Below, one piece after another: positions 23,237 through 44,590 of a DNA stretch of 45,710 nucleotides. Position 1 is the first letter of the stretch. Each line of letters opens with the position of its first letter. The notes under the pieces were generated by a model. That model was given only the letters and a program-made list of their open reading frames with translations, had not been told where the DNA came from and ran no database searches. The position numbers and the translations under genes are program-made. Source of the DNA: Erythrobasidium yunnanense. Taxonomy: Eukaryota; Basidiomycota; Cystobasidiomycetes; Erythrobasidiales; Erythrobasidiaceae. The stretch lies in the NCBI GenBank assembly GCA_001600175.1, contig BCJC01000006.1:217123-262832 (forward strand), given 5' to 3'.

Positions 23237-25684
23237 ATGTCACGAGATTTCCGCATACTAGTCTTGGGCGATGCTCAAGCTGGCAAGACGAGCCTCATCA
23301 GCGCCTTCCTGAAAGAAGAACCGATAGCGAATCCTTACGACTCATCTGACAGACCATGCACGAGATTACCGGTTGTCAGTGTTCCGTCGGTGTACGGCAG
23401 CTCTCTCTACATCGTCGATGGCAGCTCCAGTCAGTTAGGAAGCTCCTTCAACACATTCTACGATGTCTGAATGTGACATTGTTGCGTAGATGACGAGAAT
23501 GAAACGCAATCGATAAAATGGCGAAAGAACCAAGTTGGCAAAGCCGATGCTATTGTGTTGGCGTATACTAGCAATGGCTTTGCACGACTAGAAGAGTACT
23601 GGCTACCGTACTTGCGGCAAGCTACACAAGAAAGCACGTTCAAGCGCAATCGCAAGCAGCATCTCCCAATTATTCTGATCGCCTGCAAACAAGACTTGCA
23701 AGACTCTGAGATCTCTCATCATGTCTCTGGTCTACGTGCTCGCTGTATGTGATTAGCTTGGATTGTCTGTACTTGCTGACGCGTGATTCTTCCTAGTTCC
23801 TGAAGTCGAAGGACATGTACAGACATCAGCTTTGACGTATTCCAATGTCCCAGAAGGTGTGTTTCAAAATCCTTGCGTCTATATTCGTGCTGACAATGTC
23901 GGGCAGTGTATGTGCCGAAATGGCTAGAATGACGGTATCTTTCCCGCTGACACACTTTATATAGGTTTTGGCAAGCTCAACAAGCTGTTCTGTATCCTTC
24001 GTATCCACTCTATGACGCTGCGGTCCAGGTGCTTTGCGAACGGACCTCGTGGCGGGACTTGCTAATTTGAGTGCTACTCCGCAGACCTTCAGACCCAATG
24101 TGCAAACTGCTTTCGAGCGCATATTCCAGATCCTCTCCCGCGGAACTGCTCAGATATGTGCTGAAGGTCTCGCAGAAGTGCAGAAGCGAGTCTTCGGGAC
24201 CTCTCTTACCATAGGAGACGTACAAGCTCTAGTTGAGCAAAGCCATGCGCCAACAGCCAGCACCTCCAAAGCCGTCGATACCCAGTCTCTGGACAGAGCG
24301 GGCTGGCTGGGTCTAATGCAGCGCTTTATGCGATGCGGTCGAGCCGAGAACATCTGGAAGACGCTCCGTTTCTACGGCTACGACGATAATGTGGAGTTGA
24401 GCGAAGCATATCTGTATCCGAAACTACCTGGTAAACAAGATGGAACGGACGTGCTCGAGTACAGCGAGGAGGGCTGGGCTTTCATCGAAGCGCTTTATGA
24501 CCGCTATGACCATAGAGATCGAGTAAGCATGGCAGGATGAGCAGTAGGATGCGCTTTACTAATTGGTGTAGGATCCGATGACTCATCAGCCCACGAACGA
24601 TGTTCTGCAAGACCTCACACCACGCTTGCCATGGGTGTTCAGTTCGCCTGATCTGGCTACGAGAGAGATGTGGTCAGCGACCTGGGCGTGCGTAATCTCT
24701 TTTGTGTCGTTCTTCGCCTCTGACCGGCATTATACAGACGGCTAGCTTTTATAGACCCCAAAATCGCCTCGAGCTATCTAGGCATTCTCGGCTTTCCGCA
24801 ATCTGGTCCCGTTTCCAACAAAGATCAGCGTCAAAAGATAGCTGTTCCGAGATCTACAGCAGTAGCTTTCAAAGCGTGCAAAGCCCGTCAGAACCGCAAG
24901 CTGACTGCGCAAAGACGGATGTTCGGCTGTCTTGTGTATGGAAGCAAACAAAGTCTGAATCGTTTTGTGGAGACGGGCGGAGAGCATGTACTGTTGGACA
25001 ATGGTCGATATGCTACGGTGAGCCATCCGTCCATGCGAAGTTGGGCGCGACATCTGATGATTTACGCAGTTCCAGCTCGTATCGGACCCTTCGCAGATCA
25101 GCTCGCGAAAGCTAGCGAGTGCCGATCTGGCGATATACGTCTACACAGATGATACAGAAGCGCAAGACAAGGTCTCTACCAGCTCGATCGACTACCTAGT
25201 CGAAGTCCGCGAGAATGCACATCCAAGGCTCGTCGAAGCACCCAGTCTAGTGCTAGGCTTCCTGCAAGACAAGAAGCAGGACGGAGAAGCTACGCAAGAA
25301 GCGAAAGCGATGCCGCTAGAATTGCAGGATTTTTGCCAGGCTAGTAATCTAGGTGCTCTCTTGATATTGGATCAAAAGGCACCGAAAGCTGCTTTGAAAG
25401 CGCATCTGGAGAAGGTGCTATTGAAAGGGTGAGCAGCTATCTCCAATGCGTTCTTCGAAGCACAGTTGACACAATGCTGTCGTGGAAGGGCACCGCAAAG
25501 CAGAGGTTCGAGCGGATCAGACACTTTCTCAAGCTGGCTCGTTTGGTCAAGTGCTCTGGCCGCTACTTGTGCGATCGGCTATATCTTGTTACAGAGGACA
25601 GGCTGGCTGTCAGTGCATTCTTCGACGTCGTATGCGCACAGCTATGTCAGACAAGGCGCGGAGAGGATCAGGCCGATCTTCTAG
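23237..25684 (+). CDS. GEM1: Mitochondrial Rho GTPase (Miro/Gem1) with a one-nucleotide exon
   Basis: Ten exons: 23237-23429, 23490-23744, 23797-23856, 23907, 23965-24028, 24085-24522, 24572-24687, 24738-25017, 25070-25428, 25489-25684; 653 residues (yeast about 662). The N-terminal GTPase has P loop GDAQAGKTSLI and ACKQDL (variant of NKxD). Then come FWQAQQAVLYPSYPLYD, EF-hand-type helices (FERIFQILSRG, GWLGLMQRFMRCG), a second GTPase fold (ADLAIYVYTDD, VLGFLQDKK) and a C-terminal anchor WSSALAATCAIGYILL in the outer membrane. Miro acts in mitochondrial shape, inheritance and ER contacts. The second GTPase lacks a normal P loop (VYGSKQSLNR). Exon 4 is the single base T: only with it does VPE-V-FWQAQQ stay in frame. 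Confidence 0.92.
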
Positions 25685-28764: not shown

Positions 28765-30417
28765 ATGTCTTACCCTGAGCAATTCGAAGGATGGATGGCA
28801 CATGGACCTGACAGTACTAAGGGAAACTTCAAGAAGACCAAGTTCACCCCCAAAGTTGGCGTCTTTTCGATCAAATAGATGCATTGACATGAAAGACTGA
28901 CTCTTATTTCTACAGACCTGGGAGGAGACAGATGTAGACATCAAAATTCAGTATTGCGGTAAGTGTCGCTTGTTCCGACAACGCAAGGAGTTTCTGCTGA
29001 CTTGTGCCTGATCTCGATTCTCTGTCTGGCTTTGTCTTCTAGGTATTTGCGCATCTGATTTGTAAGCTACATGTCTATGAACGCACAGGCTTTCCTTGAC
29101 TGACAAGCCGGTTCCTTGCTAGGCATATGGTGAGCCAGATCTGGGATCTTCAGATATCCATAGTGCTTTGCTGAATCTCCTTGTTATTTTTTATGGGCGA
29201 GCAACGGTTGGGGTGTAGCAGAGTATCCTATCTGCGTTGGCCACGAAAGTGAGTGACTTCTTCATGGCGAAAATGGGAAGAAAAGCTAAGGGTGTCCCCG
29301 TCCATTCACTTCTTTCCACCTGCCCTTCCAACGCTTCTACTCATCTTCTACTCTCTCATTACTCTCTCATATTGCTTCTCTTGCCGCTCTCAGTCGTTGG
29401 CGAGGCTGTCAAGGTCGGAAAAGAAGTCAAGCATGTCAAAGTCGGCGATATCGTCGGCGTCGGTGCACAGTGTGGAAGTTGCTTGTCTTGCGAGTACTGC
29501 AAGAAGGGTGAGGGCCAGTATTGCGATGCCGGGTATGTCTGCTGTCCCGAAAACCCGGTGAATTTCCCTGCTGAGCCACTGTATTCGTTCACAGACAAGT
29601 CGGAACTTATGCTGGTATGTATTACTACTACTCGCTATCCTCCTCACTATTAACAAGGCTTCCGTTCTTCCCAGGTCGCTTCAAGCAAGGTCCAGCGAAG
29701 GGGGACAGATCTCAGGGAGGATACGCAGACTACAATCGAAGCCCTGCAGCCTACGTTGTGAAGATCCCCGACGGTCTGGATCCAGCTGTGGCCGCTCCAA
29801 TGCTTTGCGGAGGTGTTACCGTCTACTCTCCGCTTAAGAGATACGGAGCAGGCACCACTGCCAAGAAGGTCGGTGTTGTAGGACTTGGTGGTCTCGGACA
29901 TTTCGCCGTCCTCTTCGCGAACCATATGGGAGCCGAAGTCACAGTCATCAGCCACAGTCATAGCAAAGAAGAAGACGCAAAGAAGATGGGCGCAACCAAT
30001 TTCATTGCTACACACGGCGATGGCGATGTCTTCAAGAAGAATGCTCGTTCTCTTGACCTTATTATATCTACTACCAATGACAGCAACATGCCAATTATGG
30101 ACTACGTCAGTCTCCTGCGCCCACACGGTATCCTTTGTATGGTCGGCGCTCCGGAGAAGCCTCTACCACCCCTTACCGTCTTCCCACTTCTTATGGGTAA
30201 TATCATGATCGGTGGATCAGCTATTGGATCGCCGGAGGAGATTGCCGAAATGCTGGAACTTGCAAAGAAGGAGGAGATCCATGGTTGGGTCAAAAAGTGG
30301 GATATGGAGGAGGTTAACACTGCCGTCCCTGACATGGAGGCTGGAAAGGCCAGATACAGATACGTTCTGGTAAACCAGAAGAACGGTGGAAAGCTACAGG
30401 ACGGTAGCAAGCTCTGA
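28765..30417 (+). CDS. Zinc-dependent alcohol dehydrogenase, NADP(H)/cinnamyl type (ADH6-like)
   Basis: Reduces medium-chain or aromatic aldehydes in the cytosol. Exons 28765-28854, 28916-28958, 29043-29061, one starting at 29123, 29202-29248, 29394-29532, 29595-29614 and 29675-30417; about 370 residues. Motifs in order: catalytic zinc CGICASDLH and VGHE, structural zinc CGSCLSCEYCKKGEGQYC, QVGTYAGRF, catalytic PMLCGGVTV, and nucleotide-binding VGVVGLGGLGHF. SHSHSKEED at the second strand fits NADP rather than NAD. The exon at 29123 cannot be joined to 29202 in frame with GT..AG ends: the canonical donor at 29130 gives a frameshift, while the length of homologous proteins predicts HMVSNGWG across this junction. 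Confidence 0.9.
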
Positions 30418-37043: not shown

Positions 37044-38918
37044 ATGGCCACTGTCCTCGACGCAGACTCGTCCGGTTGGCGGTTCGCGCAATGCTTTGGC
37101 GACAAAGGCGAGGTGAGGGCTTATGTTCAGCGAGAATGTTAGATATCTATTCTTACTTGATATGACTGCCCAGGTCGAGGATGTGACGGAGGCAGACATC
37201 ATTTCGACCGTCGAGTTTGACCATACCGGAAACTACCTAGCTACGGGAGACAAGGGCGGCAGGGTTGTGCTATTCGAACGTCATGAGAGCAAGAAGCAGA
37301 CCTGCGAATACAAATTTTATACCGAGTTCCAATCGCACGAACCCGAATTCGACTACCTCAAATCCCTGGAAATTGAAGAAAAGATCAACAAGATCAGGTG
37401 GTGCAGACGTCAGAACCAAGCTCATTTCTTATTGTCTACAAATGGTGAGTTCGGCCCAGGTCTCTGTGCTGCTCCTCAGCGGACGCGAGACCGTTCGATG
37501 TACCTCGTCATATACAGCAATACTGACACAAACTTCATGTTGTACCTCTCAGACAAGACGATCAAGCTATGGAAAGTGTTTGAGAAGTCTCTGCGGGTCG
37601 TGGCAGAGAATAACCTTTCAGCATCTTCACTCTCCTCCGGCTCCCTGAATACCTCCGACTTCCACCCTTCTCCCCTCAATAACAACACCAGCGCTCCCTT
37701 TCCCAACAATAACTCTCAAAGCCCTCAACTACGCCTACCTCGAATGGCCTTTCACGATAATATCGTAGCGGCTGTTCCGAGGAAGGTCTACGCGAACGCT
37801 CACGCATACCATATCAATTCGATCAGCATCAATAGCGATGGGGAGACTTACATGTCGGCAGATGACTTGAGGATCAACCTTTGGAACCTGAACATCAGCG
37901 ATCAGAGTTTCAGTGCGTGCCTGAAGGGTCTCTCGCGCGCCGGCGCTGGACTGATACTTCGCTTGCAGACGTTCTCGATATCAAGCCTGTCAACATGGAA
38001 GAGCTTACCGAGGTCATCACTGCTGCTGAATTCCATCCAGCTTCTTGCAATCTCTTCTGCTACTCGAGCTCGAAAGGGACCGTCAAGCTGGCCGACATGC
38101 GAGACTCGGCCTTGTGTGACAAGCATGCGAAGTGTATGTCCCATCTTACCGCATGCCACATTTCACAAGCATGGCTAACGCAATTCCGCAGTATACGAAG
38201 AAGAGGAAGATCCTTCGAACAAATCTTTCTTCAGCGAAATCATATCTTCAGTCAGCGACGTCAAGTTCTCTAGAGATGGTCGGTACATCCTATCTCGAGA
38301 CTACCTTACCCTGCGAATCTGGGATATCAACATGGACTCGAAGCCTATCAAGACGATAAACGTACATGATCACCTTCGTCCTAAGCTCTGCGATCTATAC
38401 GAGAATGATTGCATCTTTGATAAATTCGAATGTACATGGTCTGGTGACGGAGAGTGAGCCAATATCCAGCTCCTTCTGAAACACTACCTAATATACATCA
38501 ATTCACCTCTCAGACACGTTCTATCTGGATCATACAACAACAACTTCCATATCTACGACAAGAACGCAGAGACTGACGTTGTGCTGCAAGCGGACAAGTC
38601 GGCCTTCAAAGCCAAGAAAGTTGGGGCGCAAAAGAACAAGGCGGCTGGTATTGGGGCCAACAAGAATGCTAAAGGCGCAAATGGAGTTCGTACGCCTATC
38701 GATGTTGATAATATCGATTTCAACAAGAAGATCCTCCATGCGAGCTGGCATCCTAGGGAGGATACGATTGCTGTGAGTCCCGACAACTGAAGCGGAGCGG
38801 TAGTATGAATTGACTAATGCTGCATTCCTAGATCGCCGCTACAAACAATCTCTTCCTTTTTGCCAAGTCAGGCACTTCCAACACAGCTGCTCCGAACTCA
38901 ACGACCGGCTCATCGTGA
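37044..38918 (+). CDS. CDC55: Protein phosphatase 2A regulatory subunit B (PR55/Cdc55)
   Basis: WD40 beta-propeller that directs PP2A to its substrates in mitosis and morphogenesis. Exons 37044-37112, 37174-37444, 37553-37912, 37969-38133, 38192-38453, 38514-38772 and 38832-38918 give 490 residues. Family landmarks: [93 protein letters not shown] and [17 protein letters not shown]. Asn/Ser-rich and Lys/Ala-rich insertions lie at about 135-170 and 400-435, as in other basidiomycetes. Intron 2 is 108 nt, twice the usual, but joins LSTN to DKTIKLW without gap. Confidence 0.97.
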
Positions 38919-40178: not shown

Positions 40179-42097
40179 ATGAAGTTCTGTCTTGGACGAC
40201 CACCTATCAATCCTATCAATGGAAAAGCGCAAGCGCTGCCCATCAGTCAGCTGATTGCAACTTGTCAAGCCCGGAGCGTTGCTCACCTACTTGCAATTTC
40301 CCAGTCAATCCTCTCGACCGCCATGGCAGGGTTTTCTTCTTCGCTTGGATGGGCTTTATGCTGTCTTTCATGGCCTGGGTGAATTGAAAATCGTCTGTAT
40401 GAAACCCCGGCGCTGACCGTTCTTCTATCAAGTACGCGTTTCCTCCTCTCCTCAACGTCACCATTCGACAAGACCTAGGTCTTACTCGCGAACAAGTGCT
40501 GAACAGCAATATCGTGGCACTTGGTACGGCTCCTCATTCTCACAGCCGGTTCCCTATTAATACCTGACTGAGGAGCTATCCCACAGTTGCCGGTCTATTG
40601 ATGCGATTCCTTGTTGGACCTCTTTGCGATGCCTTCGGACCCAGATATGTCATGGCTGGCGTTCTCGTCAGTGCTGCAATTCCCGCAGGTCTGGCAGGAA
40701 CGATCACCAAGTGAGGATTCGGAGCTTGACTGGCATCTGTCTGAGTGTTAATGCTGACTGCCTTCGACACCTCTCAGCGTCGGTGGCCTCTATGCTATCC
40801 GCTTCTTTGTGGGCATTGCTGGAGCATCTTTCGTACCGTGCCAAGTCATGTGCACCGGCTGGTACGACAAGAACGTCGTCGGCACGGCCAACGCATTTGC
40901 AGCTGGATGGGTGTGTGATCCTTTCTTCCATTCTATTCGTTTGAGTAGCTAAAGCAAGGTATTTCCAGGGCAATGCTGGAGCAGGTGTGACATAGTGAGC
41001 TGCGACGTCACATGTTATTCGCCCAGAAGATGCACTGACATAGTATTGTCTAGCTTCGTTATGCCGGCTGTTTTCGACTCGCTCGTACGTGATCGAGGAC
41101 TTACAAGACATGTCTCCTGGCGAGTTGTGAGTATTGGCTTCTCGCCAAACTTAACCGTGACCCATGCTAAACAACATGCGAGCAGTCCTTCATTGTTCCT
41201 TCCCTTTTGTTACTGGCAACGGCAGCAGGCGTTCTTTTCCTTTGTGATGATACTCCGAACGGCAAATGGGCAGACAGACACCTTCCATACTCTCCAAGTA
41301 CCGAAGACATCGTCAACGCCTCAACTGATCGGGCAAGCGAGTCTTCGGAAAAGAAGGATGAGGCTTCAGCGGTTGTACGATCAGCTCCAACACCCGAAGA
41401 AGAGGCAGCACTTCCTTCGCAAGATGCCAAGCCAATCATCGAAGTCGTCGAAAAGCCATCTTTGAAGACGGCACTCAAGGGACTACTCTGCTCGCAAACA
41501 TTGATGTTAGCTGCTCCTTATTTCTGCACGTTCGGAGGCGAGTTAGCTATCAACTCTATACTGTCGTCATGGTACCTGCGCAACCATCCATCCTGGGGCC
41601 AGACGCTGGCCGGGCGCTGGGCCGCCATGTTCGGCTTGTTGAACGTTATCACGCGACCAGCTGGCGGATTCGCTGGTGATTACATCTATAAGATTGTGGG
41701 ACCAAAGCGAGGAGTGGCTGCCAAGAAGTATTGGTACGCCTTCCTCTGCTTCATGCAAGGCGTCAACTGCTTGTGGCTAGGCTTGTTCGATCCCAAGTCG
41801 GCAGCTATTCAGATCCTTGGAGTAGCTCTCATTGCTATTCCTATGGACGCTGCAAACGGCGCTGCGTTTGCACTGGTCCCTCATGTCAACCCGCACATCA
41901 ACGGAATCATGTCTGGCACCATCGGAAGCACTGGCAATTTCGGAGGTGTAATCTTTTCAGTCATCTTCCGCTACGTCCCCTACCATTCCGGTGTCTGGAT
42001 CATTGGCGTCTTCTCATGCGCTATCGGAGCCGCAATCTGCTTCATCCACCCCATCCCAAAGGCTCAGCGAGGAGCGGGAGGTTATATGTCAACATGA
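40179..42097 (+). CDS. NNP-family nitrate/nitrite transporter, copy 1
   Basis: MFS carrier of the nitrate-nitrite porter family (CrnA/NrtA type), plasma membrane, H+ symport. Exons 40179-40245, 40305-40378, 40433-40523, 40587-40710, 40778-40910, 40969-40994, 41054-41126 and 41186-42097 give 499 residues. Motifs: [20 protein letters not shown] in the first helix, [13 protein letters not shown] (MFS motif), [20 protein letters not shown], and the nitrate signature region with [15 protein letters not shown] and [16 protein letters not shown]. The cytoplasmic loop is acidic ([22 protein letters not shown]). Compared with copy 2 it has an extra 67-nt intron (40711-40777, within TITN-VGG) and lacks one that copy 2 has. 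Confidence 0.93.
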
Positions 42098-42698: not shown

Positions 42699-44590
42699 AT
42701 GAAGTTCTGCCTCGGACATCCGCCTGTCAACCCAATCAATGGAAAAGCGGAGGCGCTCCCCATCAGTCAGCTCTGACCATTTTATGGCATAATCTCAAGT
42801 AGTACTAAACGCGCAATGTGCCAGTCAATCCTTTCGACCGCCATGGCCGCGTCTTCTTCTTCAGCTGGCTGGCTTTCATGCTGTCCTTCCTGTCCTGGGT
42901 CAGTACGATGATTTGTACAGCGTATAGTAAGAGGCTCACTGTGCTTCCATTGCCAGTATGCCTTCCCACCTCTACTATCCCACAGCATCAAAGCAGATCT
43001 ACACCTTACTACTCCGCAAGTCTTGAATAGTAATATCGTAGCCTTAGGTAAGCATACACACAAAAGACCAGACGCTCGTGGCTAATTTCAGTATCCGCAG
43101 TCGCCGGATTCTGCATGCGCTTCATTGTTGGCCCCCTCTGCGATGCCTTTGGTCCACGAAAAGTTATGATCGCAATTCTCGCATGCGCTGCCATCCCAAC
43201 TGGTCTGGCGGGAACAATCTCGTCTGTCAACGGACTTTACGCGATTCGATTCTTTGTTGGTATCGCTGGTGCTGCGTTCGTTCCCTGTCAAGCTTGGTGT
43301 ACCAATTGGTATGATAAGGGTGTGGTGGGAACTGCCAATGCTTTCGCTGCCGGATGGGTAAGTAGCTAGCTCAGTGAAAAGGTCGTTGAGTCGTAGAACT
43401 AACTCCCTACTCAGGGAAATTCCGGAGGTGGTATCACATAGTAAGGCTACACTTTGCCATGTATTAAGATCAACAGCTGATCGAGAGAATTACAGCTTCG
43501 TCATGCCGGCAGTCTTTGATTCGCTCGTCCACTCACGGGGCTTGACCTCCCACGTTGCATGGCGTGTTGTAAGTTCGCGACGAGGATCTGTCAGGGATGC
43601 GCTAATATCCACGTACAGTCCTTCATCGTACCCTGCATATTACTATTGGCAACAGCGGCTGCGATTCTTCTCACCTGCGAAGATACGCCAAACGGAAAAT
43701 GGGCAGACAGGCATTTACAGCATTCTGCCGTGTCTGGAAATCCGAAGGAGACTGTCGATCGTGCCTGCAATTCCTCCATGGACAACGAAAAGAAGGTCGA
43801 AGGTAGCGCGTCTGTGCGGCCAGCCCCGACTCCGGAGGAAGAGATTGAAAGTGACCCAAAGAATACGATACCAATCATCGAAGTTGTAGAGAAGCCAAAC
43901 CTAAAAACAGCCTTGAGAGGGCTCCTGTGCATGCAAACCCTCATGTTGGCTGCTCCTTGTAGGTCGTCTCCAGCGCAGGCAGTTTCAAAGAAGTGGCTAA
44001 TGTACCACACAGACTTCTGCACCTTCGGAGGAGAGTTGTCTATTAACTCCATCCTTTCTGCCTGGTATCTGCAACACAACCCTCGCTGGACCCAGACCAA
44101 AGCTGGACAATGGGCGGCCATGTTCGGACTGCTCAATGTGGTGACCCGGCCATTGGGTGGCTTCGCAAGCGACTGGATCTACAAACTCGTTGGGCCAAAG
44201 CGAGGTGTCCATGCTAAGAAGTTTTGGTACGGCTTCCTCTGTTTCATGCAAGGGGTCTTCTGCCTTTGGGTGGGCTTGATCAACCCGAAGTCGCATGCCA
44301 CTCTCATAGGTGGAGTAGCAGGCATAGCTATTTTCATGGATGCTGCCAACGGTGCCGCCTTCTCCTTAGTCCCGCATGTCAACCCGCACATCAACGGAAT
44401 CATGTCTGGAACCGTCGGTGCATGCGGGAATCTGGGAGGCGTGGTCTTCTCAGTCATCTTTCGATTTGTGCCGTACAACAAGGGCATCTGGATTATCGGC
44501 ATCTTCTCTATGATCATCGGAGCCGCTATCACCTTGATCAAGCCCATTCCCAAAGCACAGCGTGGTGCAGGAGGTTATATGTCGACTTGA
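42699..44590 (+). CDS. NNP-family nitrate/nitrite transporter, copy 2
   Basis: Tandem paralogue of the previous gene. Exons 42699-42765, 42825-42898, 42957-43047, 43101-43357, 43415-43440, 43496-43568, 43619-43958 and 44013-44590 give 501 residues. It shares the start [59 protein letters not shown] and the end [14 protein letters not shown]. In the signature, Leu replaces Phe (GNLGG for GNFGG). The loop between helices 6 and 7 differs most (NPKETVDRACNSSMDNEKK). An intron at 43959-44012 is absent from copy 1 at the same codon (AAPY-FC). The two proteins probably differ in affinity or timing; this is inference. Confidence 0.93.

Follow-up and report, generated by a model that had tools for sequence, protein, structure and literature searches.

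A probable one-nucleotide exon in the Miro/GEM1 gene of the basidiomycete Erythrobasidium yunnanense

We found that a Miro/GEM1-type GTPase gene of Erythrobasidium yunnanense very likely contains an exon of one nucleotide, a single T that is flanked by two complete short introns and is probably constitutive. The gene lies within a 45,710-nucleotide stretch of contig BCJC01000006.1 (assembly GCA_001600175.1), which we refer to in its entirety as the window. An earlier sequence-only reading had placed a 50-nt intron, the T, and a 57-nt intron between positions 23856 and 23965, and we verified these coordinates and their motifs (Table 1). One-base exons represent the lower limit of exon definition by the spliceosome, and the published nuclear cases that we found are few, namely APC11 and VPS55 in plants and CYP621A in Fusarium. 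If a conserved gene for a mitochondrial GTPase also has one, flanked by two short introns whose signals are clear, this would suggest that such exons have originated repeatedly and are missed by standard annotation.

Table 1. Positions in the window of the Miro/GEM1-type gene, the predicted one-nucleotide exon and its neighbors
Feature	Position	Strand	Basis
Miro/GEM1-type GTPase gene	23237..25684	+	spliced-model translation: ten exons, 653 aa + stop
Exon 3 (60 nt), last bases ..CCA GAA G, the final G opening a codon	23797..23856	+	
Upstream intron, 50 nt, GTGTGT..GCTGAC..GGGCAG	23857..23906	+	regex match, signal score 18.8
Predicted one-nucleotide exon T, middle base of GTG = V170	23907	+	intron signals, gene search, protein match
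Downstream intron, 57 nt, GTATGT..GCTGAC..TATATAG	23908..23964	+	regex match, signal score 18.8
Next exon, 64 nt, G TTT TGG CAA.. = FWQAQQAVLYPSYPLYD	23965..24028	+	gap-free alignment to Miro1

The reading frame requires one base between the end of exon 3 and the G TTT TGG exon. The T at 23907 restores the frame within the NVPEVFWQAQQAVLYP segment and completes a valine codon, while A, C, or G at the same position would encode Glu, Ala, or Gly, respectively. When 23856 is joined directly to 23965, translation runs into a stop at codon 234 (24212). The T stands in the arrangement CAG-T-GTATGT, with a complete acceptor on one side and a complete donor on the other, and each flanking intron has its own branch site, with 13 nt after the branch A in the upstream intron and 14 nt in the downstream one.

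The protein encoded by the spliced model identifies the gene. It matched the PDB entry 9e2p, "Mitochondrial Rho GTPase 1," which we take to be the human protein, over residues 1-446 (E=1.2e-35), as well as the Miro1 GTPase domain in 6d71 (E=1.1e-14). In the alignment to Miro1, V170 stands opposite a Leu and there is no gap at that place, where the fungal side reads NVPEVFWQAQQAVLYPSYPLY. An N-terminal Ras-like GTPase domain (Pfam Ras, 26 bits; cut-off, 21.6) and an EF-hand-associated region (PF08356 EF_assoc_2, 48.4 bits; cut-off, 23.7) were both present; at E values of up to 0.001, the Miro protein had no Pfam match to PF08355 or to the EF-hand families. A hydrophobic stretch near the C terminus, WLVWSSALAATCAIGYILL, seen by eye in the translation, is a possible membrane anchor. 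Our translation also confirms the earlier claim that ten exons, including the one-base exon, yield 653 residues, although the protein could instead have 648, five fewer. At the last intron (in the stretch 25429-25503), the acceptor at 25488 (GGAAG) is weak, and the alternative at 25503 (CAG) was almost equal to it in a search over gene structures (121.9 versus 122.5 for 25488). Extending the gene past 25684 through additional predicted introns raised the score from 122.5 to 125.4. We retained the stop at 25684 because, on inspection, the protein then terminates shortly past the hydrophobic stretch.

We scored the splice signals of both introns with models from which these two were left out. 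A strict intron regex, composed after the finding was known and before any model was trained, matched 28 times on the plus strand and 28 times on the minus strand; the matches include both introns flanking the T and 4 of the 7 other introns of the Miro gene. A signal model trained on 48 regex-found introns from both strands gave each of the two the same score, against a range of 10.6 to 20.1 for the seven other Miro introns. We also trained the model on 25 predicted introns from six other genes in the window. With this second training, the upstream intron scored 18.0 and the downstream intron 16.5, while the training introns ranged from 14.3 to 21.4 and the seven other Miro introns from 12.5 to 17.3. 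These scores should be read with the understanding that the training introns were predicted in this window, rather than taken from cDNA, and that some of them are surely false.

The sequence-only reading had claimed that every other exon candidate of suitable length carries a stop, and this proved wrong. We enumerated parses with GT or GC donors at 23810-23959 and AG acceptors at 23840-24027, holding the other introns fixed, and obtained 74 in-frame parses that encode more than 600 aa (17 with a single intron and 57 with two introns, the parse with the one-base exon being among the latter). Scored on intron signals, with intron-start priors and with GC donors included, the one-base exon had a net score of 14.7, compared to 1.8 for the best of the other 73, and was ahead of all of them by 12.8 nats. 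In a gene search that combined coding and GT-AG intron scores, with the start at 23237 and the stop at 25684 fixed and a penalty of 5 nats for each exon shorter than 6 nt, the structure with the T exon again ranked first (122.5), and the best structure without it scored 114.6, or 7.9 nats less. A run of the gene finder across the whole window likewise picked the T exon. The other 73 parses thus lose on splice signals, and the three that we compared at the protein level also lose on similarity: the match to Miro1 (9e2p) was 63.9 bits for the model with the T, 58.3 when a Gly was added, 50.3 when four residues were lost, and 42.1 when 17 residues were added, and in the same comparison the Pfam Ras match was 30.8, 25.7, 25.9, and 24.5 bits, respectively. 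Intron signals, the gene search with its penalty on tiny exons, and protein similarity all support the one-base exon proposed in the sequence-only reading as the best parse.

Could two such introns come to lie one base apart by chance? Across the two strands of the window, we found a single pair of tandem introns that are 1-3 nt apart and both score at least 16, the pair at this locus, and there were no such pairs in 60 dinucleotide-shuffled strands. At a threshold of 14, shuffled strands contained an average of 0.07 pairs each, and the minus strand of the window held one other pair, with a gap of 2 nt. We also shuffled the 79 interior bases of the 108-nt span, leaving 6 bases at its start and 23 at its end in place. 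An in-frame split with both halves scoring at least 18 arose in 2 of 20,000 such shuffles, and under the second training the summed score was reached in 0 of 50,000. The median length of 106 predicted introns in the window is 57 nt, with 103 of them shorter than 108 nt and 3 reaching that length, and an intron of 145 nt fits the neighboring dehydrogenase gene. Because longer introns do occur in the window, length speaks only weakly for the split. The gene finder also called nine other internal exons shorter than 25 nt (5-20 nt), among which we checked the 7-nt one; since it generates spurious tiny exons, its choice of the T proves nothing by itself. Local alignment gave no support for the idea that the two introns were copied from each other or from introns elsewhere in the window: the two scored 14 against each other, and of 69 intron-like stretches the highest-scoring pair reached 24, inside the 21-29 range of the maxima from 20 shuffles. 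On the minus strand, at 38246-38365, there is a weaker pair with a gap of 1 nt (scores of 15.3 and 12.1, found at a threshold of 12), which is probably due to chance.

One alternative is that 23857-23964 is a single 108-nt intron and that the assembly is missing a base in a flanking exon. We judge this unlikely. The outer sites of the span are valid (score, 12.8), long introns exist in the window, and one junction in the neighboring dehydrogenase gene keeps all conserved residues only as GT..GG, perhaps through a wrong base in the assembly. However, this explanation calls for an indel and also for an unrelated coincidence, namely a good acceptor and donor separated by a single base, in the correct phase and placing a Val opposite the Leu of Miro1, and such splits were the rare outcome of our interior shuffles (2/20,000 and 0/50,000). 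In addition, the predicted OMP decarboxylase and actin-family genes span nearly their whole Pfam profiles (1-216 of 221 and 4-406 of 410), and indels are therefore uncommon here. It is less probable still that the first half of the span is kept as coding sequence, adding 17 residues, and that a 59-nt intron at 23906-23964 is all that is removed. This parse is in frame, free of stops, and the second best, with an intron signal of 13.3, yet it falls 7.9 nats below the parse with the T. Its donor, GTGTAT, scores -0.35, compared to 5.0 for the GTATGT two bases downstream; it would keep a complete intron in the mRNA, the retained part having a coding score of -0.3; and the 17-residue insert breaks a conserved segment, with similarity to Miro1 falling to 42.1 bits from 63.9.

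The remaining alternatives shift one end of a long intron or dispense with the exonic base altogether. A single intron could begin at a donor at 23861 (GTTTCA, adding a Gly) or end at an acceptor at 23975 (GGCAAG, removing four residues). Both are in frame, but the signal totals of 0.2 for 23861-23964 and 6.5 for 23857-23975 compare poorly with 18.8 for each half of the split, the gene search placed the two structures 19.9 and 15.9 nats below the one with the T, respectively, and both weaken the similarity to Miro1 and Ras, so that we regard this pair of readings as highly improbable. The order of elements would also fit a [D1,2] stwintron, in which an internal intron (23857-23906) lies between G (23856) and TGTATG and splits the donor of an external intron, leaving no exonic base. 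As a coding route, we rejected it: it joins GAA to GTTTTGG, departs from the conserved frame, and reaches a stop at codon 186, and its donor GTGTAT scores -0.35 in the genomic context. Stwintron splicing could nonetheless occur here as mis-splicing, although we consider it exceedingly improbable as the explanation of the locus.

How might a one-base exon be spliced? Intron definition would suffice for each of the two introns, since each has a donor, a GCTGAC branch site, and an acceptor of its own by which it would be recognized. Since the acceptor and the donor that flank the single base overlap, they presumably could not be bound simultaneously, and the introns would then be removed sequentially. 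Either order of removal would work because AGT precedes the second donor both before and after the loss of the first intron (..CAGT and ..AAGT). Skipping of the T would cause a frameshift and termination at codon 234, and given that four introns remain downstream of this stop (24212), the skipped RNA may be degraded. With clear branch sites and a total span of only 108 nt, the locus lends itself to a simple test of which intron is removed first. We also considered whether the locus might act as a built-in decision point, at which the same two introns yield full-length Miro, the product with all 108 nt skipped, or the stwintron product; this seems doubtful to us. If it were true, Miro levels would depend on which second donor is chosen, GTGTAT or the GTATGT that lies two bases away, and the locus could reveal interconversion between stwintrons and one-base exons.

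The sequence-only reading called single-nucleotide exons extremely rare and named one, from an Arabidopsis gene; the kind is better known than that, with published cases in plant APC11 and VPS55 and in Fusarium CYP621A. The T exon in the Miro gene would therefore be a further case of a known, very rare kind and not just the second. Its closest counterpart is in the CYP621A P450 genes of Fusarium, where a one-nucleotide exon with RNA reads is described by its authors as the first in a fungal gene (Nelson and Syed 2026, PMC12940212). As in the Miro gene, a single base lies in a short intronic stretch of a fungal nuclear gene, between GT-AG introns, and takes the second position of a codon that belongs to a conserved motif, where it is essential for the frame (PMC12940212). 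That base is the G in AGGGT (PMC12940212), whereas the Miro base is the T in CAGTGT and is predicted from the sequence of a single genome. In Arabidopsis APC11, the single base is likewise essential for the frame, and sequential removal of the flanking introns has been proposed (Guo and Liu 2015, PMC4674806). Unlike the Miro base, however, it is an A in an intronic stretch of 422 nt, and protoplasts of Arabidopsis and rice carrying reporter constructs were used to test it (PMC4674806). In plants, APC11 and VPS55 have conserved one-nucleotide microexons that had likewise been overlooked by annotation, but these are kept across land plants, and VPS55 transcripts with and without the exon occur in some lineages (Yu et al. 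2022, PMC8831610). The [D1,2] stwintrons described from Ascomycota resemble the Miro locus in having two introns at a single place that are removed sequentially, but as described there they retain no exonic base (PMC12403724). In Miro that reading breaks the frame. At 20 nt, the regulated microexon of Trichoderma Xlr2 is a further small fungal exon (PMC11121469).

We found no report of a one-base exon in a Miro, Gem1, or RHOT1 gene in the literature searched, which consisted of open-access papers and was covered partly by title. No relative turned up when we scanned genome_contigs and viral_contigs, neither of which is a collection of eukaryotic genomes. Mitochondrial genomes employ splicing of another kind. 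The term one-base exon also appears in papers on those genomes, for placozoan cox1 (PMC5436844), Ophiostoma (PMC12308204), and Ceratocystis (PMC8208691).

Elsewhere on the plus strand of the window, the 7-nt exon that we checked (GCATATG, 29123-29129) falls within ..CGICASDLHMASNGWG.. of the alcohol-dehydrogenase-like gene. The protein that includes it aligned to 6kj5 without a gap in that stretch (283 bits), and the organism may therefore be able to splice very small exons. Keeping ASNGWGVAE in this protein requires that the next exon start at 29197, which is preceded by GG instead of AG; the AG acceptor at 29223 preserves the frame but loses nine residues. The intron at 29130-29196 would thus end in TTTTTTATGG, and it may be a GT..GG intron or reflect an error or polymorphism in an acceptor base. 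Two similar transporter genes, which we presume to be nitrate-transporter-like, lie in tandem on the same strand at 40179-42097 and 42699-44590, and the first of them matched Pfam MFS_1.
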